64,000 bases of DNA from Acidobacteriota bacterium (GTDB lineage: Bacteria; Acidobacteriota; Vicinamibacteria; Vicinamibacterales; UBA2999): assembly GCA_947482665.1 (NCBI GenBank), contig CANKJK010000010.1:62001-126000 (forward strand), given 5' to 3'. The notes beneath the pieces are model-generated. The model saw only the letters and a list, made by a program, of their open reading frames with translations, ran no database searches and was not told the origin of the DNA. Shown here piece after piece: positions 32,977-62,500 of the stretch (positions within the stretch are counted from its first letter, which is position 1; each line of letters starts with the position of its first letter). The position numbers and the translations under genes are program-made.

Positions 32977-33657
32977 CTAGGCCAGCGTGGCGCGAAAGCC
33001 GCTCACGAGCCAGTATCCACCGATGATGATGGCGGTCGCCGCGCCCGCAAGGACGAGCGCACGATGAGCCATGGCACCCCGCGCAGACGAGCGTGTGGCG
33101 ACGGCGCCCACGAGTGTGGCGAAGGCCGTCATCGCGACGACGCTGGCGATCCCGAAGACCGCCACATACGTCAGGGCATCCGTACGGGTGGGCAGTGCGA
33201 GTGCGGGGAGCACGCCCAGGAAATGCGATGTCCCGGCGATGCCGTGCAGGATGCCCATGGCGAACGCCGCGTGGGCGTGTCCGAGCCGCAGCAGGCCCAT
33301 GGGGCCGCGACCGACCCGCATATGTGTGTGGGTCACCTGGCCGTGTGAATGGGGCTCTGGCCGGATGGCCAGACCGCGCCTGAGGGCCCAGAGACCGACC
33401 CCGACGAGTGCCGCCCCGACCGCCCGCTCTCCCCAAAGGGAGATCGCGGGGACAGGGGGCAGGAGGTCGCGAAGGAACACAGCCAGCACGGCAATGAGCA
33501 CGACGCCGGAGGCATGGCCGAGGCCCCAGGTCCAGCCGGCCCACCAGCTGCGTTCACGCTCAGCGAGTGCCAGGGGCGCCACGGCCGCCATGTGATCCGG
33601 GCCGGACAACACGTGGACCGTGCCTGCCACCGCCGCGGTCAGCATGGTCAACATCAC
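32977..33657 (-). CDS. UreH/NicO-like membrane transporter
   Basis: A 226-residue integral membrane protein with about six helices. The first helix carries '[22 protein letters not shown]', the signature of UreH-like proteins related to nickel/cobalt transporters (His...Asp-His). A His-rich cytoplasmic segment '[19 protein letters not shown]' separates two halves, and '[27 protein letters not shown]' repeats the motif in inverted topology. Metal (Ni/Co) movement is the family expectation. No urease or hydrogenase gene is nearby, so the cargo is uncertain. The GTG start overlaps the SDR stop as GTGA. Confidence 0.78.
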
Positions 33658-34421
33658 CGGGGTGCCATGCGAATCGCGCCGTCCAACCGGATCACCTCGC
33701 CGTTGAGCATCTCGTTCTCGAAGATGTGCCGGACCAGCGCGGCGTATTCAGGAGGGCGGCCGAGACGGGATGGAAACGGGACCTGTTGACCCAGCGAGGC
33801 TCGCGCCGCTTCGGGAAGCGCGGCGAGCAGGGGCGTATCGAATGTGCCCGGGGCAATCGTCATGACGCGGATGCCGACACGCGCGAACTCGCGTGCCAGC
33901 GGCAGCGTCATGCCGACGATGCCGCCCTTCGAGGCGGAATAGGCCACCTGGCCGACCTGGCCATCGAACGCCGCCACGGAGGCCGTCGTGACGATCACGC
34001 CCCGCTCACCGGATTCAAGAGGTGGACGCGCCGACATGGCCGTCGCGGCCAGGCGGATCGCATTGAAGGTGCCGACCAGGTTGATTTCGATGGATCGGCG
34101 GAAGTGGTCCAGCGGCTGTGGGCCCTCCTTGCCGACGGCCCGTTCCGCGACCGCGATACCGGCCGTGCAGACCAGTCCGTCCACGCCACCAAAGGCGTCG
34201 AGTGCCGCATCGACGGCCCGCTGCATGTCGACCTCGGAGGTCACGTCCGTCCGGATGAACCGCGCCGAGGGTCCGAGCCTCGTTGCGCGGGTCTCGCCCG
34301 TCGCCTCGTTCAGATCCGCGATGAGGACGCGTCCCCCCGCGGCTACGACCATGTCGGCCGTCGCCCCGCCAAGGCCAGACGCGCCGCCGGTGATGATGAC
34401 CGTACGACCCTGCAACTGCAC
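33654..34421 (-). CDS. SDR / 3-hydroxyacyl-CoA dehydrogenase type II-like
   Basis: A 255-residue short-chain dehydrogenase resembling HSD17B10-type 3-hydroxyacyl-CoA dehydrogenases. Seen: '[22 protein letters not shown]', 'VLIADLNEA', '[41 protein letters not shown]', catalytic 'YSASKGG' and '[21 protein letters not shown]', with C-terminal '[16 protein letters not shown]'. GTG 34421 is chosen because the fold begins here and TACAAT lies 7 bases upstream; a TTG further upstream falls in the T run of a terminator. Likely beta-oxidation of branched acyl-CoA. Confidence 0.85.
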
Positions 34422-34428
34422 GAGCGGA

Positions 34429-34434
34429 ATTGTA
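34429..34434 (-). promoter_or_regulatory. -10-like box, probable leaderless promoter
   Basis: TACAAT on the minus strand is followed by 7 bases and GTG 34421; no Shine-Dalgarno sequence. It sits directly after the terminator of the upstream radical SAM gene. Confidence 0.5.
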
Positions 34435-34440
34435 CCCGTG

Positions 34441-34480
34441 AAAGACAAAGGGCCGGTGAGTCTGGGTGACCCACCGGCCC
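34441..34480 (-). terminator. Intrinsic terminator of the radical SAM gene
   Basis: A perfect 9-bp GC-rich stem (34450-34458 with 34472-34480) has a 13-base loop. On the minus strand it is followed by TTTGTCTTT. It lies 29 bases after the stop codon at 34509. Confidence 0.8.
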
Positions 34481-34508
34481 GGATGGTTGTGCGAACGGTC
34501 CGAGGTAA

Positions 34509-36611
34509 CTAGACCGTCTTGTTGTGCAGCACCGGCTGGACCGGATCCGCCTTCGGCTTCGGGCGGCCCTGGAGCCCCGCGATCTGAAGCGTCGGCTGCT
34601 CCTTGAGGACTTCCTGACGATAGAGGCGCTCCATCTCCTGGTGATGGCGGAGCTCTTCCGGCGTCATGTTCGCAGTCTTGCGTGCCGCGAGCTTTTCCTC
34701 GCGGGCGTTCTTGGCGATACCGAGCTCATCCAGGTCGGTCTGCGCGCCGGCCGCGACGGCCTCGGCGTTCAGCACCAGCGAATGGCTGGCATCCGCCATC
34801 TGGACGCTCTTGTTGCCCGCCCAGATCTCATGCCGGCCATGCTCTTCGTACCACTTGGTGAGCGTCGCCGTCATGTGCATCTTCTCGATGATGTTCCGCC
34901 AGCCGATGCCCGTGTTGTAGGCGCAGAAGGAAATCTCGCCCTCCTGCGTGGCATACGGAATGATGCACATCTCGGTGCGGCGGAAGTCGTAGTTGAAGAG
35001 GTCCTGGAACCACATGCCCGCGATGAACAGGAAGTTCCAGCGGTCCGCCCGGCGCTTCTCGATATCGCTCATCGTGCGGTCGCCGCCCACCTTGCCGTAG
35101 TCCCTGCCCGTGGCTCCGAACGTCTTGTCGAACTTCTTGAGGAGGTCCATCAGCCGGAAATGCGTTGGCGCCTTGAACGGGTCGTAGTTGCGGAGCAGGG
35201 CCAGTGCCATGCCCGTGACGGACAGGAACTTGCCGCGCGCGGCATCGTTGACCTGAGCCACGTCCTTGGCCAGCTGCTCGGCCTTCAGGAAGGCGGTCAC
35301 GGGAACGGCTTCCTTGGTTTCCTTGTCGATCATCAAGGCCATGCCGACGCCGCAGTTCGGGTGGCATCCGCAGGTCAGGTTGCCCCACGGCGTATCGGGT
35401 CCGTGAACGACGTCCGCCCAGTCGGTGAAGGTGCCCATGAACGAGATCGGGAACCAGTCGCGGGTCGGCTCGCCCAGACCAACCTGGCTCTTCACATCAT
35501 GGGCGAGGTGCGACAGCGTATAGCGCTGCGCGGCACGGCGCTCCGGAGTAATTTCCTCGTCGCGGCCGGTGAAGGAGACCGGCTGGAACGAGAGGAAGTT
35601 GATCCGCTTCGGATTGTCGAGCGCGAACTCGATGACCCGGCCGACCTGCTCGTTGTTGACGCCATTCACGATCGTGATGACGGGGACGATGTCGACGCCG
35701 GCCGCGTGCAGGTTCTCGATCGCGCGCAGCTTCACGTCGAAGAGATTGCCGACGCGCCGGTGCGAGTTGGCGGCGTTGCCGATACCGTCAAACTGCAGAT
35801 AGGCGTAGCGCAGACCGGCCTCGGCCGCCTGCTTCGCGAACTCCACGCTCTTGGCGAACTCGATACCGTTGGTCGCCGCCTGCACCGAGCTGTAGCCCAC
35901 CTTGCGCGCGTACCGGACGGCGTCCAGGAAGTAGGGCGACATGGTCGGCTCGCCGCCGGAGAACTGGACGGACATCTGCCGCTTCGGCTTGATCGTGATG
36001 GCGTTGTCGAGGACCTGCTTGATGTCCTCCCACGTCAGTTCGTGGACGAAACCCACCTGGTTGGCGTCCATGAAACAGGGGTCGCACATCATGTTGCAGC
36101 GGTTGGTGAGGTCCACGGTGAGGACCGACCCCCGGCCGTGCAGAATCGTGGAGCTGCCATGGTTGTGCAGCTTGGCATCGTTGTGCGCGCGGATGTCCCG
36201 GCCCGGGAACACGTCCTCCAGGTGCTTGAAGAAGGCGGTGTCCATGGCCATCACGTCCTCGAAGTGGCCGTGCAGCGGACAGTCCTTCACCATCAGGATC
36301 TTGCCGTCGCGCTCGAGAATGGTGGCCTTGATTTCTCCGACCTTCTCGTTGAGGAGCACCGAGACGTCCTGCTTGCCGTCGAGGATCGCCTGGCGGGCTT
36401 CCCGGACACAGGTCGGGCACAGTGAATCCGTCTCACGCGGCCAGCCGAGCGGCGGCTTCGTCTTCTGGTGAGACTTCAACAGCGGCTTATCCGACCAGGC
36501 TGGCGTGAACGACGGGTTCTGGGCGATCTTGTTGGCGGTGGCGAAGGCGTGCCACACCCCGTTGGCCAGAACGGCCATGCCCTTTTCCACGTACTTCATC
36601 GGCGCATGCAT
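34509..36611 (-). CDS. Radical SAM enzyme of the tetraether/membrane-spanning lipid synthase-like (Tes, MJ0619-type) group
   Basis: A 700-residue radical SAM protein. N-terminal metal/cluster motif 'SLCPTC' (Cys65, Cys68) with 'ILERDGKILMVKDCPLHGHF' (Cys111, His114); canonical CX3CX2C at Cys172/176/179 ('LTNRCNMMCDPC'); 'QFSGGEPTMSPYF' SAM-binding; and further cysteines in 'NLTCGCHPNCGVGMA'. The SLCPxC...KxCPxHG prelude is characteristic of the Tes/MJ0619-like family that couples lipid tails in archaea, whose bacterial relatives make membrane-spanning diabolic acids. Acidobacteria make iso-diabolic acid, so this role is attractive but inferred. ATG 36611 has AAGGAG 9 bases upstream; the C-terminal ~150 residues are charged and helical. 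Confidence 0.7.
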   Translation of the reverse strand: MHAPMKYVEKGMAVLANGVWHAFATANKIAQNPSFTPAWSDKPLLKSHQKTKPPLGWPRETDSLCPTCVREARQAILDGKQDVSVLLNEKVGEIKATILERDGKILMVKDCPLHGHFEDVMAMDTAFFKHLEDVFPGRDIRAHNDAKLHNHGSSTILHGRGSVLTVDLTNRCNMMCDPCFMDANQVGFVHELTWEDIKQVLDNAITIKPKRQMSVQFSGGEPTMSPYFLDAVRYARKVGYSSVQAATNGIEFAKSVEFAKQAAEAGLRYAYLQFDGIGNAANSHRRVGNLFDVKLRAIENLHAAGVDIVPVITIVNGVNNEQVGRVIEFALDNPKRINFLSFQPVSFTGRDEEITPERRAAQRYTLSHLAHDVKSQVGLGEPTRDWFPISFMGTFTDWADVVHGPDTPWGNLTCGCHPNCGVGMALMIDKETKEAVPVTAFLKAEQLAKDVAQVNDAARGKFLSVTGMALALLRNYDPFKAPTHFRLMDLLKKFDKTFGATGRDYGKVGGDRTMSDIEKRRADRWNFLFIAGMWFQDLFNYDFRRTEMCIIPYATQEGEISFCAYNTGIGWRNIIEKMHMTATLTKWYEEHGRHEIWAGNKSVQMADASHSLVLNAEAVAAGAQTDLDELGIAKNAREEKLAARKTANMTPEELRHHQEMERLYRQEVLKEQPTLQIAGLQGRPKPKADPVQPVLHNKTV

Positions 36612-36661
36612 CTTTGACAACTCCTTGAGCCCGTGGCGTTTGAGGGCCATCGGGACGCCAC

Positions 36662-36703
36662 ATTCTAGCCAGCCGGCTTGGGAATTGGGCGGATTTCCGC
36701 CCA
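36662..36703 (-). promoter_or_regulatory. Promoter and dyad operator upstream of the radical SAM gene
   Basis: On the minus strand TAGAAT (36667-36662) fits a -10 box, giving a leader of about 45 bases to ATG 36611. A perfect dyad TGGGCGGATTTCCGCCCA (36686-36703) covers the -35 position and is a candidate operator. A second imperfect repeat (CCGCCCATTT / AAATGGCGG) overlaps it to about 36719. The rest of the 36612-36870 gap holds no gene. Confidence 0.5.
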
Positions 36704-36870
36704 TTTGGCGAAATGGCGGGGTCAGTGGGCATAACTGCCGGTGGAATGGCAGCGTGCATTGCAGGGCAACTCGTCTGATAATTGTCGCGCCCTGTATTGG
36801 AACGAGCGGGTCGGGTTGCCCGTCTTAACTAAGTCAACTGCGTCCGTCCTGCTCCAAAGGAGAGAACGAA

Positions 36871-37263
36871 ATGAAGCGTGTGTCCATGTTCTTGGCGGCT
36901 TTGGCCGTCGCCCTGCTCCCGACGATTGCCCGTGCCGATGTGGCGTCCGCTGATGCCGCCGCCTATATGGGCGCCTGGGGCCTGACCTTCGAGGGCCCGA
37001 TGGGGCCGATCGATTTCACCGTGACGTTCAGCGACGCCGGCGGCAAGCTCGCCGCCAAGGTCGAGGGCTCTGCCTTCGGCGCCGGCCCGATCAAGAGCAT
37101 CACCAAGGGCGCCGACGGCGTGACCCTGGCGTTCGAGATTGACGCGGCCGGGATGGTGATCCCTGCCAAGCTGACGGTCGCCCCGGACGGCGCCAAGGCC
37201 AAGGGCAACCTGGACATCATGGACGGGATGTTCTCGGCTCCGGGTTCCGGCGCCAAAAAGTAG
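36871..37263 (+). CDS. Exported hypothetical protein
   Basis: A 130-residue protein with a signal peptide ('MFLAALAVALLPTIARAD'). A beta-rich domain follows: 'YMGAWGLTFEGPMGPIDFTVTFSDAGGKLAAKVEG' and 'GVTLAFEIDAAGMVIPAKLTVAPDGAKAKGNLDI'. It resembles lipocalin/DUF-type small beta-barrel domains seen in exported bacterial proteins, but I cannot name a family. The Shine-Dalgarno site AAAGGAGAG precedes the ATG. Confidence 0.72.
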   Translation: MKRVSMFLAALAVALLPTIARADVASADAAAYMGAWGLTFEGPMGPIDFTVTFSDAGGKLAAKVEGSAFGAGPIKSITKGADGVTLAFEIDAAGMVIPAKLTVAPDGAKAKGNLDIMDGMFSAPGSGAKK

Positions 37264-44066: not shown

Positions 44067-46745
44067 ATGCGTAATCCGGTTCCGACTGATCCCGCTGAGA
44101 TTGAAGCCCTCGAGACCCGCGAGTGGCTCGATTCCCTCGATTACGTGCTGCAGCACGGCGGGCCGGTCCGCGTCGGCAGGCTGCTGCATGAGTTGGCGGT
44201 GCATGCGCAGGAGGCTGGGGTTCGTTTGCCCTTCACGGCGGCTACGCCGTACCTCAACACGATCCCCGCCGACCAGCAGCCCCCGCTGCCAGGCAGCCGC
44301 GAGATTGAACGCCGGATTAAAAGCCTTGTTCGCTGGAATGCGTTGGCGATGGTGGTGCGGGCCAATCGGACGGAAGACGGGATCGGCGGCCACATTTCCA
44401 CGTTCGCATCGTCAGCGACCCTCTACGAGGTCGGGTTCAATCACTTCTTCCACGGGAAGGGTGACCACAACGATCAGGACCTGGTGTTCTTCCAGGGACA
44501 CGGTGCGCCCGGGATCTACGCACGTGCGTTTCTCGAAGGACGCCTCACGGTGCAGCAGCTCGAGAACTTCCGGCGTGAACTGAAGCCGGGCGGCGGACTC
44601 TCGTCCTATCCGCATCCCTGGCTCATGCCCGACTTCTGGGAGTTCCCGACGGTCTCGATGGGACTCGGTCCCCTCACCGCGATCTATCAGGCGCGGTTCA
44701 TGCGCTATCTCGAGGACCGTGGCTTGAAGGCGCCGGGGAAGGCCAAGGTCTGGGCCTTTCTGGGTGACGGCGAGACCGACGAGCCTGAGGCCCTCGGCGC
44801 CATTACGCTGGCCTCTCGCGAACGGCTCGACAACCTGATCTTCGTGATCAACTGCAACCTGCAGCGGCTGGATGGTCCGGTGCGCGGCAACGGCCAGATC
44901 ATCCCGGAGCTGGAAGCCGCCTTCCGCGGCGCAGGCTGGAACGTCATCAAGGTCATCTGGGGCTCGGAGTGGGATCCGCTGCTCGCCAAGGATCACGACG
45001 GGCTGCTGGTCACGCGCATGGGCGAAGTGGTGGACGGCGAATACCAGAAGTACGCCGTATCGTCAGGCGCCTACATCCGCGAGCACTTCTGGGGCAAGGA
45101 TCCCCGGTTACTGGAGATGGTGAGTCATCTCTCGGATGATCAGCTCAAGAAGCTGTCGCTCGGGGGCCACGACCCGGTGAAGGTGTTCGCGGCCTACGAC
45201 GCAGCCGTGCGGCACACGGGCCAGCCGACCGTGATCCTGGCCCGCACGATCAAGGGCTACGGCATCGGCGAGGCTGGTGAGGGCAAGAACATCACCCACC
45301 AGCAGAAGAAGTTGAACGAAGTCGAGCTCCGCGCGTTCCGGTCCCGGTTCGGCGTGCCCATCTCCGACGACGACATCGCCAACGCGCCCTTCTACCTGCC
45401 GTCTCCCGACAGTCCCGAGGCCCGCTACATTCAGGAGCGGCGTGCCGAGCTTGGCGGGTTCGTGCCCAGCCGCACGGTGACGGCGCCACCCCTGGTGCTC
45501 GAGACGCTGCCCGAGGTCTTCACCGAGTTCCACGACGGCACGCCCGACCGCAAGGCCTCGACGACGATGGCGTTTGTCCGGATGCTGGCGAAGCTGCTCA
45601 AGGATCCGGAGATCGGCAAGCTGGTCGTCCCGATCGTGCCGGATGAGGCGCGGACCTTCGGCATGGAGCCTCTCTTTCGTCAGGTCGGCATCTATTCGCA
45701 CGTCGGCCAACTCTACGAGCCGGTCGACAGCGACACGCTCCTCTATTACAAGGAGGCGCGCGACGGACAGATCCTGGAAGAGGGCATCAACGAGGCCGGC
45801 TCGCTGTCGTCGTTCGTGTCGGCAGGGACGGCCTACGCCACGCACGGCGTGAATACGATTCCCTTCTTCATCTTCTATTCGATGTTCGGGATGCAGCGCG
45901 TCGGAGACCTGGTGTGGCTCGCGGCGGACTCGCGGACCCGCGGGTTCCTGCTCGGCGGCACGTCGGGCCGGACGACGCTGGCTGGAGAGGGGCTGCAGCA
46001 CCAGGACGGCCACAGCCACTTGCTGGCGAGCGCCGTGCCGAACCTGATTGCCTACGATCCGGCCTTTGCCTATGAGATTGCCGTCATCGTCGAGGACGGC
46101 ATCCGGCGGATGTACAAGGAGCAGGAGAGCGTCTTCTACTACATCACTGTGATGAACGAGCAGTACGAGCAGCCGGCCATGCCGCCGGGAGTGCGCGAGG
46201 ACATCCTCCGTGGGCTCTACCGCTTCCGTCCGGCGTCGGGCCCGGCCGCGCACCGGGCGCAACTGGTCGGCAGCGGCGCCATTCTGCTCGAAGTGCTCAA
46301 GGCGCAGGCGATACTCGCGTCCGACTACGGTGTGTCGGCGGATGTGTGGAGCGCGACCAGCTATACCGAACTGGCCCGTAACGCCACCGATGTGGCGCGT
46401 TGGAACCGGTTGCATCCAGGTGAGACGCCGCGCCTCTCTCACATCGAACACTGCCTGGCTGCGACGGACGGCGTCATCGTGGCCGCCTCCGACTACGTGA
46501 AGGCGTTGCCGGACACGCTGGGCCGCTGGCTGGACCGGTCGGTGACGACGCTGGGTACCGATGGCTTCGGGCGCAGTGATGGGCGTGCGGGGCTGCGGGA
46601 CTTCTTCGAGGTGGATGCCCGGCATGTGGTGATCGCGACGCTGGCTGCTCTGGCCCGTGCCGGTGAGCTCGATGTCGTTGTGGTGACAAAGGCCATGCAG
46701 GGCTTTGGCATCGAGTCCGACCGTCCCAATCCGGCGGTGTCATGA
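44067..46745 (+). CDS. aceE: Pyruvate dehydrogenase E1 component, homodimeric type
   Basis: An 892-residue E1, close to the 887 of E. coli AceE. The TPP motif 'FLGDGETDEPEALGAITLASRERLDNLIFVINCN' is complete; also 'RANRTEDGIGGHISTFASSATLYEVGFNHFF' at the N-terminus, 'TIKGYGIGEAGEGKNITHQQKKL' and 'EGLQHQDGHSHLLASAVPN'. It decarboxylates pyruvate and acetylates the E2 lipoyl group. AGGGGAGAG precedes ATG. It overlaps aceF by ATGA, so the two proteins are translationally coupled. E3 (lpd) is not adjacent. Confidence 0.95.
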   Translation: MRNPVPTDPAEIEALETREWLDSLDYVLQHGGPVRVGRLLHELAVHAQEAGVRLPFTAATPYLNTIPADQQPPLPGSREIERRIKSLVRWNALAMVVRANRTEDGIGGHISTFASSATLYEVGFNHFFHGKGDHNDQDLVFFQGHGAPGIYARAFLEGRLTVQQLENFRRELKPGGGLSSYPHPWLMPDFWEFPTVSMGLGPLTAIYQARFMRYLEDRGLKAPGKAKVWAFLGDGETDEPEALGAITLASRERLDNLIFVINCNLQRLDGPVRGNGQIIPELEAAFRGAGWNVIKVIWGSEWDPLLAKDHDGLLVTRMGEVVDGEYQKYAVSSGAYIREHFWGKDPRLLEMVSHLSDDQLKKLSLGGHDPVKVFAAYDAAVRHTGQPTVILARTIKGYGIGEAGEGKNITHQQKKLNEVELRAFRSRFGVPISDDDIANAPFYLPSPDSPEARYIQERRAELGGFVPSRTVTAPPLVLETLPEVFTEFHDGTPDRKASTTMAFVRMLAKLLKDPEIGKLVVPIVPDEARTFGMEPLFRQVGIYSHVGQLYEPVDSDTLLYYKEARDGQILEEGINEAGSLSSFVSAGTAYATHGVNTIPFFIFYSMFGMQRVGDLVWLAADSRTRGFLLGGTSGRTTLAGEGLQHQDGHSHLLASAVPNLIAYDPAFAYEIAVIVEDGIRRMYKEQESVFYYITVMNEQYEQPAMPPGVREDILRGLYRFRPASGPAAHRAQLVGSGAILLEVLKAQAILASDYGVSADVWSATSYTELARNATDVARWNRLHPGETPRLSHIEHCLAATDGVIVAASDYVKALPDTLGRWLDRSVTTLGTDGFGRSDGRAGLRDFFEVDARHVVIATLAALARAGELDVVVVTKAMQGFGIESDRPNPAVS

Positions 46746-48031
46746 CCGTGTTCCTGCTTCCTGCACTGGGCGAGAACGTCGCGGCCGGGGTCGTCGCGCG
46801 GGTGCTCGTGCGGGTGGGCGAGACCCTCGCGAAGGATCAGGGCGTCGTCGAACTGGAGACGGACAAGGCGACGGTCGAAGTGCCGTCCACCGTCGCCGGC
46901 GTGGTGCGGTCCATTGCCATCAAGCCGGGGGACCGTGTCCAGGCCGGGGCCCTGGTGCTCGAGGTCGACGGTGACGCCGGTGTGGCGGTGACGGCGCCTG
47001 CCGCGCCGGCGGTTCCTGCCGCCCGCTCACACGCTGCGCCGGCGGCTGTGGCCCCTCTGCCCGAGCCCGTCGCCGACGTGCCATCGCCCCTGCGGGTCTC
47101 AGTACCTGCGCAGGGGAGAGGCCCGATCGCGCCGGCCTCGCCACGGGTGCGCCGTCTGGCTCGGGAGATTGGTGTTGATGTCCTGGCCGTCGATGGCAAC
47201 GGTCCGGAAGGCCGCATCACCCAGCATGACGTTAAGTCGCACGCCGCTCGGGCGTTCTCGGCATTAGTGGCGTCGGCGGGATCTCACGCGCCATCGGCCT
47301 CGCGGGACCTGCCGGATCTTTCACGATGGGGTGCCGTCGAGCGACAGCCGATGTCGAGTGTGCGTCGGGCGACGGCCGTCCACCTGGCGCAAGCCTGGGC
47401 AACGGTGCCACAGGTGACGCAGGCCGACAAGGCTGACATCACGGAGCTTGAGGCGGTTCGCAAGCGGCTCGCGCCCGATGTGGAGGCGCAGGGTGGCAAG
47501 CTGACGATGACGGCGATTCTGGTGAAAGTGCTCGCGGCTGCGGTGCGGCAGTTTCCCCAGTTCAACGCCTGTGTGGATATGGCCGCCGAGCAGGTCGTGT
47601 TCCGGCAGTACGTCAACGTCGGCGTCGCGGTCGAGACGGACCGCGGCCTCCTGGTACCGGTGGTGAAGGATGCGGATCGCAAGGGGCTCGGTGCGATCGC
47701 CGTTGAGGTTCAGGCGCTGGCGGTGAAGGCGCGCGACCGGAAGCTGAGTCTGGACGAGATGAGTGGCGGCGGCATCAGTATCTCGAACCTGGGTGGCATC
47801 GGCGGGACGCACTTCACGCCCATCGTGAACTGGCCCGAGGTGGCGATTCTCGGCGTGTCGCGCGGCGCGATGGAGCCCGTCTATCGGAACGGGGCGTTCG
47901 AGCCCCGCTTGATGCTGCCGCTCTCGCTGTCCTACGACCACCGCCTCATCGACGGGGCGGACGGCATTCGCTTTCTGCGCTGGATCTCTGAGACGCTCGA
48001 AGCACCGCACCGGTTGGCCTTGATTTCGTAG
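46742..48031 (+). CDS. aceF: Dihydrolipoamide acetyltransferase (E2) of pyruvate dehydrogenase
   Basis: A 429-residue E2 with only one lipoyl domain (about 1-78, Lys in 'ELETDKATVEVPS'; E. coli has three). An Ala/Pro linker, a peripheral subunit-binding domain ('ASPRVRRLAREIGVDVLAVDGNGPEGRITQHDV') and the catalytic domain ending 'LSLSYDHRLIDGADGIRFLRWI' with His and Asp follow. Transfers acetyl to CoA. Follows aceE with a 4-base overlap. Its lipoyl group would be made by LipA, encoded convergently just downstream. Confidence 0.95.
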   Translation: MTVFLLPALGENVAAGVVARVLVRVGETLAKDQGVVELETDKATVEVPSTVAGVVRSIAIKPGDRVQAGALVLEVDGDAGVAVTAPAAPAVPAARSHAAPAAVAPLPEPVADVPSPLRVSVPAQGRGPIAPASPRVRRLAREIGVDVLAVDGNGPEGRITQHDVKSHAARAFSALVASAGSHAPSASRDLPDLSRWGAVERQPMSSVRRATAVHLAQAWATVPQVTQADKADITELEAVRKRLAPDVEAQGGKLTMTAILVKVLAAAVRQFPQFNACVDMAAEQVVFRQYVNVGVAVETDRGLLVPVVKDADRKGLGAIAVEVQALAVKARDRKLSLDEMSGGGISISNLGGIGGTHFTPIVNWPEVAILGVSRGAMEPVYRNGAFEPRLMLPLSLSYDHRLIDGADGIRFLRWISETLEAPHRLALIS

Positions 48032-48061
48032 CCGGTGGCCTGTGGACGGGGCAGTGCGATG

Positions 48062-48159
48062 CCCCGGGGCGAGGGGCCGTTCCAGCACGACTGAAGTGAA
48101 CGAGCCAAGTGCGTGTTACAGGCGCCCGCGGAGCGCAGGAACGGCCCCTCGTTCCGGGG
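48062..48159. repeat. Long inverted repeat between convergent aceF and lipA
   Basis: Two 22-bp arms (48062-48083 and 48138-48159) are inverted copies with two mismatches, including 14 perfect bases. The loop is 54 bases. There is no T run. It could act as a shared terminator or be one copy of a dispersed palindromic element. Confidence 0.7.
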
Positions 48160-48177
48160 TGTCGAGCTGCCGGACAA

Positions 48178-49080
48178 CTACCGGCTGACGGCGGCTTCGT
48201 GCGCGTCGGCCTGTTCGTGCGCGTGGTAGGAGCTGCGCACCAGCGGACCTGACTCCACATGCGTGAAGCCCAGCGCCATCGCCTGCGCCTTGAGCTCCGC
48301 GAATTCATCCGGGTGGTAGTAGCGGATCATCGGCGTGTGCGCCGCACTCGGCCGCAGATACTGACCGATCGTCAGGATCTGGACGCCGACCTTCCGGAGG
48401 TCGCCAAATACCTGCAGGATCTCGTCCCGCTCCTCGCCGAGGCCAACCATGATGCCCGTCTTCGTGGCGATGTGCGGCGCATAGGTGCGTGAGCGGTCGA
48501 GCAGTTCGAGTGAGCGAGGATAGCGGCCGCCCGAGCGCGCCATGCGATAGAGTCGCGGCACGGTCTCGATGTTGTGGTTGAGCACATCAGGGCCGGCGTC
48601 AAGCACGGTCTTGAGCGGTGCTTCCTTGCCCTGGAAATCCGGAATCAGCACTTCGATGCGGCACTCGGGACGCTGCGCACGCGTCCGCTGGATCGTGTCC
48701 GCGAAGATGGCGGCGCCGCCGTCGGGGAGGTCGTCGCGATCGACGGATGTGATGACCGCGTGCTTGAGCGCCATCGAGACGATCGCGTGGGCGACGCGTC
48801 TCGGCTCGTCCAGGTCAGTCACCACGGGCTTGCCGTGCGCCACCGCGCAGTACGTGCAGGCGCGCGTACAGATGTCCCCCAGAATCATGAACGTCGCTGT
48901 GCCGTGATGCCAGCACTCGCCGATGTTCGGGCAGTGGGCGTCCTCGCACACGGTGTTGAGCTTCAGGTCCGCCATGATCGACTTCAGGCGGATGAAGTTC
49001 TCCGAACCCGGGGCGCGGACCTTCAGCCAGGCCGGCTTGGCCTCCCGCGGCCGAACGAAGTTCAGGGGCGCTTCGTGCAT
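48178..49080 (-). CDS. lipA: Lipoyl synthase
   Basis: A 300-residue radical SAM enzyme adding two sulphurs to octanoyl groups. Auxiliary cluster Cys in 'VCEDAHCPNIGECWHHGTATFMILGDICTRACTYC', the latter providing CX3CX2C; 'VVTDLDEPRRVAHAIVSM', 'SVDRDDLPDGGA', 'VLNHNIETVPRLYRMAR', 'TKTGIMVGLGEERDEI' and 'YYHPDEFAELKAQAMALGF...SGPLVRSSYHA' all match. TACACT lies 7 bases before ATG. Its product supports the E2 encoded by aceF. lipB is not seen nearby. Confidence 0.96.
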   Translation of the reverse strand: MHEAPLNFVRPREAKPAWLKVRAPGSENFIRLKSIMADLKLNTVCEDAHCPNIGECWHHGTATFMILGDICTRACTYCAVAHGKPVVTDLDEPRRVAHAIVSMALKHAVITSVDRDDLPDGGAAIFADTIQRTRAQRPECRIEVLIPDFQGKEAPLKTVLDAGPDVLNHNIETVPRLYRMARSGGRYPRSLELLDRSRTYAPHIATKTGIMVGLGEERDEILQVFGDLRKVGVQILTIGQYLRPSAAHTPMIRYYHPDEFAELKAQAMALGFTHVESGPLVRSSYHAHEQADAHEAAVSR

Positions 49081-59575: not shown

Positions 59576-62500
59576 CTAGAAGTCGTACCCAATCCACATC
59601 CGAAAGCGCGGCTTCCGGAATGCGGCGCTCCCACCCTGCGTCGCGAACGCGACATCCTCCCAGTCCCGGTTCAGTAGCGTCCGCCACGCCCAGTCGAAGT
59701 GCACCGGGAACCCGAGGAGAAAGGTCTCGAGGCCCACGCCGTAGGATGCCCGCCCGTCCACGAGTCTCAGCCCTGAGATTGTGCGTGGCGTGCCATTGAT
59801 GGGCGCCAGCGTGACCGGGTCGTAGGTGACCGGCGTCTGGACCTCGGTCTTGCGGCTGAGGAAGGTGAAGTTCTGTCCCGCGAAACTGGCGCCGCCGGCG
59901 TCAGCAAAGAAGACACCGCGGATGCCGCCCATCACGCCGATGGGCGTGAGCATGGCTTCGATGAACGGGAATCGGAGTTCGGCGTTCAGGAAGAACACGC
60001 GCTGACCGATGAACTGGAGGTAGTCGTAGCCCCGCATCTCGGAGTTGCCGCCGAAATAGATGTAGTCGGGGTTACGGCCCCAGCTCCGGAAGCCGCGGGC
60101 CCGAAGCGCCAGTACGCCGTTCGACGCCAGGCGCTGATAGAGCCGGGCATCCCCGTCCACGGTCTGGCGTGTCACGGAGTTGCTCCCGATGTTGGGCGCG
60201 TACTGATAGCTGGCGCGAACCGTGTTTCCGGCCAGCGGGCCGTATTCGCGGAAGACCGTCGTCTCCTGGACGAAGCTCACACCCAGCGGGGCACTGAAGC
60301 CGTTATTGAAGAGCGGCTGCGCACAGTTGCAGAGCTCCTGCTGGTAGTCGACCGAGAACTGTTGGAGACCCGGGTCGTTGTATTCCTCGCGGTAGTGCAC
60401 CAGACCACCGAAGACCTCCACGCGCCGGTATTTGTTCAACGGGTAGATGCCAAAGGCCGTGCCGCCCTGGATCGTGCGCGTGGCGGTGGCGAGATCGCGT
60501 GAGATGAGCCCCGAGAACGACGGGTCGTAGAAGACGCCGTCCAGGTTGCCGTAGAAGAACTGCTTCTGGGAGTAGCCCTGGAAGGAGTACTGAAACCGCC
60601 GCTCCAGGTTGGTATAGCTGGCGCCGATGGTGCGGTACTGCTGGATGGAGGCGGCCGAGAAGGCGAACTGCTTGTCGCCCAGGACGTCACTGAAGACCAC
60701 CTGGGTGCCGCCGAAGACATCGCCACCGCTGGTGACGCCCACGCTGATGGGAGGGCGGCCGTCCAGAAACATCTTCTCGAACGTGCCCTTCTTCCGCTTG
60801 TTGGTCGGGACCAGCGTATGGCTGACGGGGCTCTGGAAGTCGATGACCGGTCCCGGCGATCCGAAGTCGGCTGACGCGGCCTTCGCGACAGGCTCCTTCT
60901 TGTCGAGGGTATGCAGCTCGTACTCGCCCTTGTAGTAGGTGATGAAGGCCAGCTGCTTCGTCTTGCCGCGGTTCAGCACGATGGGGCCCACATTGCCGGC
61001 CACCGCGTCGGTCTGCTGCAGCAGTTCGCCGTTCTTCAGGTTGAGCGTCCAGATGTTGTAGGTGACGCCATTGCGCGCATCCTCGGGCGAAATGACCTTG
61101 TTCGGGTCCATGGCCGTTGACGGAAACACGATGGTGGCGTCGTCGATGAATCGGGCCTGTCCGTCGTCATGCGTCCCGAACGTGAGCTGGGTCTTCTTGC
61201 CGCTGGCGACATCCAGCCGGAACAGCTTCTCGCTGCCGCTGATGCGCGCGATGTAGATCAGGGCCTTCCCGTCCGGCGTCCACGAGGGACCGGAGTCCGC
61301 GAAGGTGTCCTTGGTGACGTTGGCCACCGCGCCGCTCTCCACGTTGACCGTGAAGATGTCTCCGGTGGCGTTCTGCAGTCCGGCGAAGGCGACCTGCGTG
61401 CCGTCCGGTGAGAAGCTGGGCGATTCCGGTTCATCGATGGTCTTCATCTCGATGCGCCGCTCGATCGACCCGGTGAGGACGTTCTGGATGATCAGGGTCC
61501 GGTGCTTCTCGCGCCGGACGAAATAGGCCAGGCGGTCACCGTTGGCCGACCACGACATCCAGGCCACGGTGTTGTAGCGCATGCCCGGCTGGATGAGGAA
61601 CTCGAAGCCTTTGTCCTTGTCGAACCCACTGGTGAGGTTGCGGACGATTGAGCCGTCCTTGCTCGAGACCAGGACGATGTCGAGTTCCTGGTCCTTCCGG
61701 TTGACCGTGACCTGTGCCATCAGGTCGCCCGAGGGTGAGGGTTCGGCCGAGAGGACTTCGCGGAACTTTGTCTTCTCCGGGTTGGGCGCCAGGTTGCGGC
61801 CGTAATCCGCCGGGCGTTCCCTGTCACGGAAGGCCTTGAACCGATCCTTCAGATACTTGTCGAACTGCTGGTCGAATTCCTCGGCGGTCAGCTTGAAGGC
61901 ATCCTGGTAGGCATCCTCGCCGCCACCGATGACCGACTTGCGGAGCGCGAACATGAACTGGCGGACGCCCTCCTTGCCCCAGCGCGCCTCCATGAACTCA
62001 AAGCAGGCGTGCCCGAGGTTGTAGATGAGGCGCGGGTTGCCGAAGTTCCCGTAGCCGTCGAGCTTGCTCATCTTCGGGATGATGTCGGCCACGGCCGCGT
62101 CCCGGACCGTCATGAGATCGATCGGCCGCCAGATGCCGGCCAGGTAGTCGGAGTTGCCTTCGTGAACCCAGAGCGGCACGCTCTGCCGGATCAGACCCAC
62201 CGGGATGATGTCGTTCTGGAAGACGTGCCCGAGTTCGTGCACGACCAGCCGATAGAGCAGGTCCGGTGGTTCATCGATCGGCAGCAGCATCCGGCTCCGC
62301 GCGGAGTCGACAAACGCGCCGACGCCTTCCTGCGCGCCTCCCGGGATGACGTTCTGTTCCTGGAACTCGGAACTGGTCTTGAACAGGATGAGCGTGATCT
62401 TGCCGGAGATGTCGTGCTTCAGCAGCGTGGAGATGTGCTGGTAGGCGCTCTCGGCATAGCCGGCCACCCGCTCCAGGTGTTCCTCCATCTCCGGATAGAA

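Follow-up and report, generated by a model that had tools for sequence, protein, structure and literature searches.

The DNA analysed here is a stretch of 64,000 nucleotides (hereafter the window) from an Acidobacteriota bacterium of the Vicinamibacterales lineage UBA2999, corresponding to positions 62,001–126,000 of contig CANKJK010000010.1 in assembly GCA_947482665.1. Its minus strand contains an open frame of 731 codons at 34509–36704, whose product had been likened in a preliminary description to Tes, a radical S-adenosylmethionine (SAM) enzyme that joins lipid tails. The ATG at 36611 was taken as the likely start because a ribosome-binding-site-like AAGGAG, read directly from the sequence at 36621–36626 (minus strand), sits 9 nt 5′ to it and several orthologues open with a similar MHxPxKY. 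The coding sequence at 34509–36611 (minus strand) then specifies exactly 700 amino acids, the length given earlier, and is named here as a Tes-like radical SAM protein of the A-type, without the N-terminal [4Fe-4S] site. The frame reported before is therefore real, although its end at 36703 fits the longer frame of 731 amino acids and its strand had been left unstated. The extra length had been put down to a charged C-terminal extension; such an extension is found at residues 591–700 (34512–34841, minus strand), where it is less conserved and 30 of its 110 residues are K, R, E or D, and it explains a part, the rest being due to an N-terminal extension and a longer C68–C111 spacing. Across the A-type orthologues this tail is 70–145 residues long, with a median of 108.5.

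The archaeal Tes MJ0619 is described as having four metallocofactors: a rubredoxin-like Fe held by C9, C12, C33 and H36, an N-terminal cluster ([4Fe-4S]N) held by C73, C77, C80 and a histidine, the radical SAM cluster, and a C-terminal cluster ([4Fe-4S]C) with a labile Met439 (Lloyd et al, 2022; PMC9433317). The corresponding columns were compared in an alignment holding 25 A-type, 4 B-type and 13 C-type rows, B being a paralogue of the A-type and C the acidobacterial Tes with an N-terminal cluster site. Residues were counted in a wider set of 148 matches in 149 loci, of which 124 A-type (the window's gene included) and 4 B-type sequences were scored and 20 C-type, distant or partial ones excluded, and in a check set of 40 lower-identity A/B matches (50–68%) fetched from the genome survey after the first counts. 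The motifs quoted in the preliminary description are all present in the protein. SLCPTC and KDCPLHGHF contain C65-x2-C68 and C111-x2-H114, a predicted rubredoxin-like or HMPTM zinc-ribbon metal site (36270–36419; minus strand, as all sites below) on the evidence of PF23545 and the alignment. CNMMCDPC (36075–36098) is the radical SAM motif C172-x3-C176-x2-C179, and CGCHPNCG holds C414, C416 and C420, the last of which aligns with C338 of MJ0619 (CGCHPNC, residues 414–420, 35352–35372). The C-terminal cluster segment (34923–35015) contains, by alignment, M533 (Met439 of MJ0619), C549, Y553 (Tyr459) and C563. All four residues of the first site, the three radical SAM cysteines, and M533, C549, Y553 and C563 are kept in 124/124 A-type, 4/4 B-type and 40/40 further A/B rows. 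Because of their conservation, C420, C549 and C563 are the putative ligands of the C-terminal [4Fe-4S] cluster; the source text on MJ0619 names Met439 alone. The equivalents of MJ0619 F106, Q268, S271, R275, Met439 and Tyr459 are also kept in 25/25 A-type and 4/4 B-type rows.

Where Tes has its C73-x3-C77-x2-C80 motif, the protein has HNHGSS (residues 149–154, 36150–36167), and the four [4Fe-4S]N ligand columns read as a gap, H151, S154 and L157. H149 and H151 were found in 124/124 A-type, 4/4 B-type and all 40 further rows, and S154 in 37 of those 40. No cysteine stands at the C73, C77 and C80 columns in 25/25 A-type and 4/4 B-type rows, nor at the C77 and C80 columns in the 40 further rows, while the ligands are retained in 13/13 acidobacterial C-type Tes. 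By these alignments the N-terminal [4Fe-4S] binding site has been lost in the A/B lineage, and the earlier count is strengthened because the 40 added sequences agree with it. Three cluster sites had been expected, and a lack of auxiliary cluster cysteines had been named as an argument against the assignment; the cysteines of the N-terminal cluster are indeed missing, whereas the protein has those of the C-terminal cluster, the substrate-proximal one in MJ0619. A TrsS-like protein of Salinirubellus is also without the N-terminal CxxxCxxC motif, so loss of this motif occurs elsewhere in the superfamily. C414, C416 and H417 are invariant in the 128 A/B rows; in the further rows C414 and H417 are kept in 40/40 and C416 in 39/40 (S once). 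C414 and C416 are not unique to A/B, because they are partly present in the C-type (4/13 and 7/13 rows, respectively).

When the protein was searched against Pfam, it matched Radical_SAM (PF04055, E = 1.9e-19) and the HMPTM N-terminal zinc ribbon (PF23545, 50.3 bits against a cut-off of 27). The best NCBIfam model was Tes (NF045702, E = 3.4e-92, 309.6 bits), which was matched over nearly its whole length by residues 61–580, followed by TrsS (NF045646, E = 5e-61, 206.6 bits) at 103 bits below, a Tes model with an intein and, at much poorer scores, models of NirJ, AhbC and MoaA type. The curated cut-offs are 450 bits for the Tes equivalog and 490 bits for TrsS, and this protein scores below both. 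Similar Tes scores were found for the A-type L040 (323.4 bits) and the B-type L062 (318 bits), and the four C-type rows scanned (L049, L053, L058 and L060), members of the same superfamily, pass the cut-off with 510–594 bits. Tes exceeds TrsS by 103–115 bits for P0001, L040 and L062, whereas TrsS is higher by 11–55 bits for the other relatives P0002, P0003 and L068, none of which reaches the TrsS cut-off. In the PDB sequence search the best match was GDGT-MAS/Tes (7TOL, E = 6e-65; next, 7e-6), and a profile of 40 A-type sequences found 7TOL as the sole match at E ≤ 1e-8 (9.4e-69). Identity is 32% to MJ0619 over 466 columns and 35% to the C-type L049. An AlphaFold model built from a 40-row A-type orthologue alignment was weak (predicted local distance difference test score 57, predicted template modelling score 0.61) and was used for fold ranking only. 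Foldseek placed 7TOM and 7TOL first for it (E = 1.5e-21 and 9.1e-21; next, 8.4e-6), and in the VIA comparison Tes gave Z = 19.1 with a root-mean-square deviation of 4.5 over 420 residues, MoaA being next with Z = 13.7 over 238, which suggests a Tes-like fold. Tes is thus the best NCBIfam model, the best PDB sequence match and the best fold match, and the family named in the preliminary description holds. By its sequence the protein is placed in the Tes superfamily, and it is called Tes-like instead of a Tes equivalog because its score is under the curated 450 bits.

In the phylogeny, the A and B types are monophyletic (100/100), their long branch lying among acidobacterial C-type sequences, and three distant TrsS-like rows are split off by a 100/100 branch; the tree carries long-branch warnings and was relied on for the monophyly of A and B only. 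The C-type Tes at L049:1501–2952 (minus strand) has intact N-cluster ligands and already the CxCHxxC arrangement (FCSCHTNCG) seen in the A-type; it is possibly an intermediate, weakly placed beside A/B (92/24). Among 297 Acidobacteriota genomes (own included), 166 match at E ≤ 1e-40, 143 at the A/B level and 23 at the C level only, as sorted by best E-value and not by reading each sequence. At the same threshold, 88 of the 106 genomes of the order that are at least 90% complete match, and 39 of 40 relatives match at E ≤ 0.001, MoaA-level matches included. Most full-length matches in the order are 76–93% identical over about 650–700 residues and a few 63–67%, and this high identity excludes chance. 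A single-contig genome of the order (7,480,314 bp) carries an 80% identical copy, and no other full-length Tes relative was found in the own genome (97.5% complete). The B-type paralogue (L062, L063, L064, L048 and L187–L198) is 50–53% identical and without the N-cluster site; several genomes in families f34 and f40 carry both types. A scan of a genome-contig collection gave at least 590 stretches with at least 584 relatives; among the best 80, which were listed, 78 have acidobacterial titles and 2 are titled Rhodanobacteraceae. These two (L079 and L088) have A-type genes 89–90% identical to a Terriglobia one and are probably mislabelled or mixed bins. A single in-frame stop was seen in some otherwise well-conserved A-type matches (G033:C63:3589–5676 and a few others in G098, G047 and G114), which may be pseudogenes, assembly errors or artefacts of frame extension. 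An origin from plasmids or mobile elements was considered and rejected, as 10 of 72,556 plasmid records match at E ≤ 1e-10, with 22–29% identity and none covering 80% of the protein. The two plasmid matches that were translated score best with TrsS; the plasmids of Mycolicibacterium vanbaalenii and Salinirubellus (L165 and L166) have TrsS-like radical SAM genes with a methyltransferase gene directly after.

Named isolates among the best 80 include Granulicella aggregans, G. rosea, G. paludicola, Edaphobacter modestus, E. lichenicola, Acidipila rosea and Acidicapsa dinghuensis. When the named isolates (Terriglobia) were searched whole, the A-type was the best Tes match in 7/7, and in 5/7, including E. 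modestus DSM 18101, it was the sole full-length Tes relative, nothing else exceeding 65 bits. The own genome of the window has no match to PF09989 in a search that had Thermotoga maritima among its positive controls and ElbD outside its range; this domain is presumably the hallmark of PlsA/Ger ether formation. In the absence of such a match, the product in the source organism is probably ester-bound iso-diabolic acid. In the published lipid data, iso-diabolic acid makes up 30.4% of the fatty acids of E. modestus DSM 18101 and 11.8% in E. lichenicola DSM 104462, a strain that differs from the two sequenced ones, and the Edaphobacter strains are given as containing it with glycerol ethers undetected (PMC11354219). 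Contents of 27–49% are given for Occallatibacter and relatives (PMC12935467), and the acid is listed from subdivisions 1, 3, 4 and 6 (PMC13274423). The connection with acidobacterial iso-diabolic acid drawn in the preliminary description is supported by the gene distribution together with these published lipids (PMC11354219; PMC13274423).

These results together suggested that the gene probably encodes an acidobacterial membrane-spanning-lipid synthase, which would join two iso-C15 tails into iso-diabolic acid. The radical SAM enzyme would link two iso-C15 chains, acyl or alkyl, of bacterial phospholipids at their terminal carbons, and the C30 iso-diabolic acid chain would be the product. By analogy with MJ0619 (Lloyd et al, 2022), a 5′-deoxyadenosyl radical would abstract H at one of the iso-methyl ends, and the resulting alkyl radical would be stored by bonding to a sulfur atom of the C-terminal cluster, after which a second SAM would generate the second radical and the two sp3 carbons would join; the N-terminal [4Fe-4S] cluster would be dispensable for this in the A/B lineage. 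Several observations weigh against this synthase reading. The 309.6 bits fail the Tes equivalog cut-off, none of the 168 acidobacterial A/B sequences examined has the N-terminal [4Fe-4S] ligands, an HxHG motif taking their place, and the branch leading to A+B measures 3.48 changes per column, so that the function could have shifted. MJ0619 N108 is replaced by D in 25/25 A-type and 4/4 B-type rows, and at the SAM-contact position R210 only 10/25 A-type rows have R and 4/4 B-type rows have G, unless the neighbouring invariant R285 is the true partner. Of the order genomes, 18/106 are without a match at E ≤ 1e-40, and no lipid gene was seen clustering with the gene in 12 loci from the same order, 20 from other groups of Acidobacteriota, 49 named loci and 7 scanned neighbours. 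A second Tes-like match occurs in 2/7 isolates (Acidicapsa dinghuensis, 256 bits; E. lichenicola, 178 bits, partial), and genotype and phenotype match in the exact strain for E. modestus DSM 18101, one strain only. Solibacter usitatus has two Tes homologues and makes branched glycerol dialkyl glycerol tetraethers (brGDGTs), with iso-diabolic acid reported as undetected (PMC10087280), a case tempered because making the brGDGT chains requires the same bond. For A-type or other acidobacterial enzymes, the literature searched yielded no activity test.

The long A+B branch, the loss of one cluster site, the conserved C414/C416 and H149/H151 and the score under the Tes equivalog cut-off would also fit a Tes-derived enzyme with a changed reaction, in which the same radical chemistry on lipid tails serves, for example, sideways bridging (as in Gms) or modification of a ready-made iso-diabolic chain. 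We consider this unlikely, since E. modestus has no other full-length Tes relative for the coupling, yet iso-diabolic acid is a major fatty acid in it; the equivalents of Met439 and Tyr459 near the reaction in MJ0619 are also kept, though neither was essential there (PMC9433317). For Solibacter usitatus a brGDGT pathway with Tes homologues has been proposed (PMC10087280), and a synthase specific for brGDGTs would condense ether-linked iso-C15 diethers into tetraethers and not act on ester lipids. The absent PF09989 match in the own genome and the Edaphobacter strains that hold iso-diabolic acid with glycerol ethers undetected (PMC11354219) make such a restriction very unlikely for the gene. 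A place in a neighbouring radical SAM family, either TrsS or the HMPTM-like pterin methylases, with a small molecule or peptide as substrate, is likewise very unlikely: PF23545 is named for HMPTM and TrsS is the second-best model, but Tes beats TrsS for P0001, L040 and L062, unlike for P0002, P0003 and L068, the distant TrsS-like rows are separated in the tree, and Lloyd et al were unable to corroborate earlier findings and judged the methanopterin fit unlikely (PMC9433317).

The protein shares with archaeal Tes/GDGT-MAS (MJ0619; 7TOL/7TOM; NF045702) the domain order, the rubredoxin-like and radical SAM sites, the C-terminal cluster residues with the Met439 and Tyr459 equivalents and probably, from the weak model, the fold. 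It differs in being without the [4Fe-4S]N ligands C73, C77, C80 and H83, in the conserved C414/C416 and H149/H151, in the N- and C-terminal extensions giving 700 amino acids, in the score under the family cut-off and in its expected substrates, which would be iso-branched bacterial lipids. The A-type carriers with lipid data are presumably aerobic soil bacteria. Compared by description only, the bacterial Mss (Sahonero-Canavesi et al, 2022) is like it in the proposed reaction, from tails to (iso-)diabolic acid, and in its Tes-like architecture (PMC13274423). Mss and Ger are treated there in Bacillota, with Mss homology limits of E ≤ 1e-30 and identity above 30% (PMC13274423), and the Mss work concerns mostly anaerobes (PMC13274423; PMC11868695). 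Zeng et al (2022) listed 456 bacterial Tes homologues, proposed a brGDGT role and gave identities to archaeal Tes of 32% for Edaphobacter aggregans, 42% for Koribacter and 40% for Solibacter (PMC8941075). E. aggregans, given as a producer of both iso-diabolic acid and brGDGTs, has one Tes homologue, whose role was proposed from homology, and the lineage without the N-cluster is unmentioned in the available portion of that paper (PMC8941075); its homologue is very probably an orthologue of the gene studied here. Such activity is described as unconfirmed for bacterial Tes homologues (PMC11868695). New here are the recognition of the A/B lineage, the loss of its N-terminal cluster site and its wide spread in the phylum, and the finding of the A-type as the only full-length Tes-type candidate in the iso-diabolic acid producer E. 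modestus. Tentatively, and with more doubt than for the coupling reaction, we propose that the A/B clade may be a Tes with two clusters, evolved within the Acidobacteriota for living in the presence of oxygen, in which a surface-exposed N-terminal [4Fe-4S] cluster was discarded (the site becoming HxHG) and C414/C416 beside the C-terminal cluster help to re-tune or protect that cluster; the clade would then be the long-sought oxygen-tolerant iso-diabolic acid synthase behind the membrane-spanning lipids and brGDGT precursors of Acidobacteria.

The surroundings of the gene were also inspected. A stem-loop of 13 pairs with a loop of 5 and a T-rich tail lies at 34450–34480 (minus strand) and was taken as terminator-like because of its position just past the stop codon and its 13-bp stem; the terminator announced earlier is statistically weak, as the region has 2 such sites and shuffled sequence would be expected to yield 2.2. 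A promoter of its own had also been claimed but is unsupported, a simple consensus scan giving 0 sigma-70-like sites in 34300–37000. An SDR gene (33654–34448) lies downstream beyond the stem-loop and a possible small gene (36871–37263) upstream is divergent, so the gene is plausibly monocistronic. An antisense frame of 633 amino acids inside the gene (34524–36425, plus strand) probably just reflects GC-rich codon use, because the longest such frame varies from 314 to 690 codons among 8 relatives checked. Within the window Rfam gave no match at the gathering threshold, leaving an RNA element unsupported. Nearby (44067–49080) are genes for the E1 and E2 components of pyruvate dehydrogenase and one resembling lipoyl synthase, likewise a radical SAM protein. 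Conserved partners or an operon were looked for and rejected: neighbours recur in at most 4/12 loci of the order and 0/20 loci of other acidobacterial groups, all chosen for carrying the gene, which is hence in all of them. Among 49 named loci 11.5 kb or longer, the commonest neighbour family was found in 16, and of 7 neighbours scanned with Pfam, 4 had no match and the others were lytic transglycosylase-like, a DUF882 peptidase and QueG-like (6/49 loci).

Widely used proxies for palaeotemperature and pH are built on brGDGTs and iso-diabolic acid, lipids whose best-known producers are Acidobacteria, with a coupling enzyme that is without activity proof in the literature searched. The widespread and recognisable A-type gene makes this question directly testable in culturable isolates, and it may serve as a marker for potential makers of these lipids in soils. 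With the C-terminal cluster residues kept and the N-terminal site lost, the A/B lineage would also be a natural experiment on which clusters are needed by Tes chemistry.

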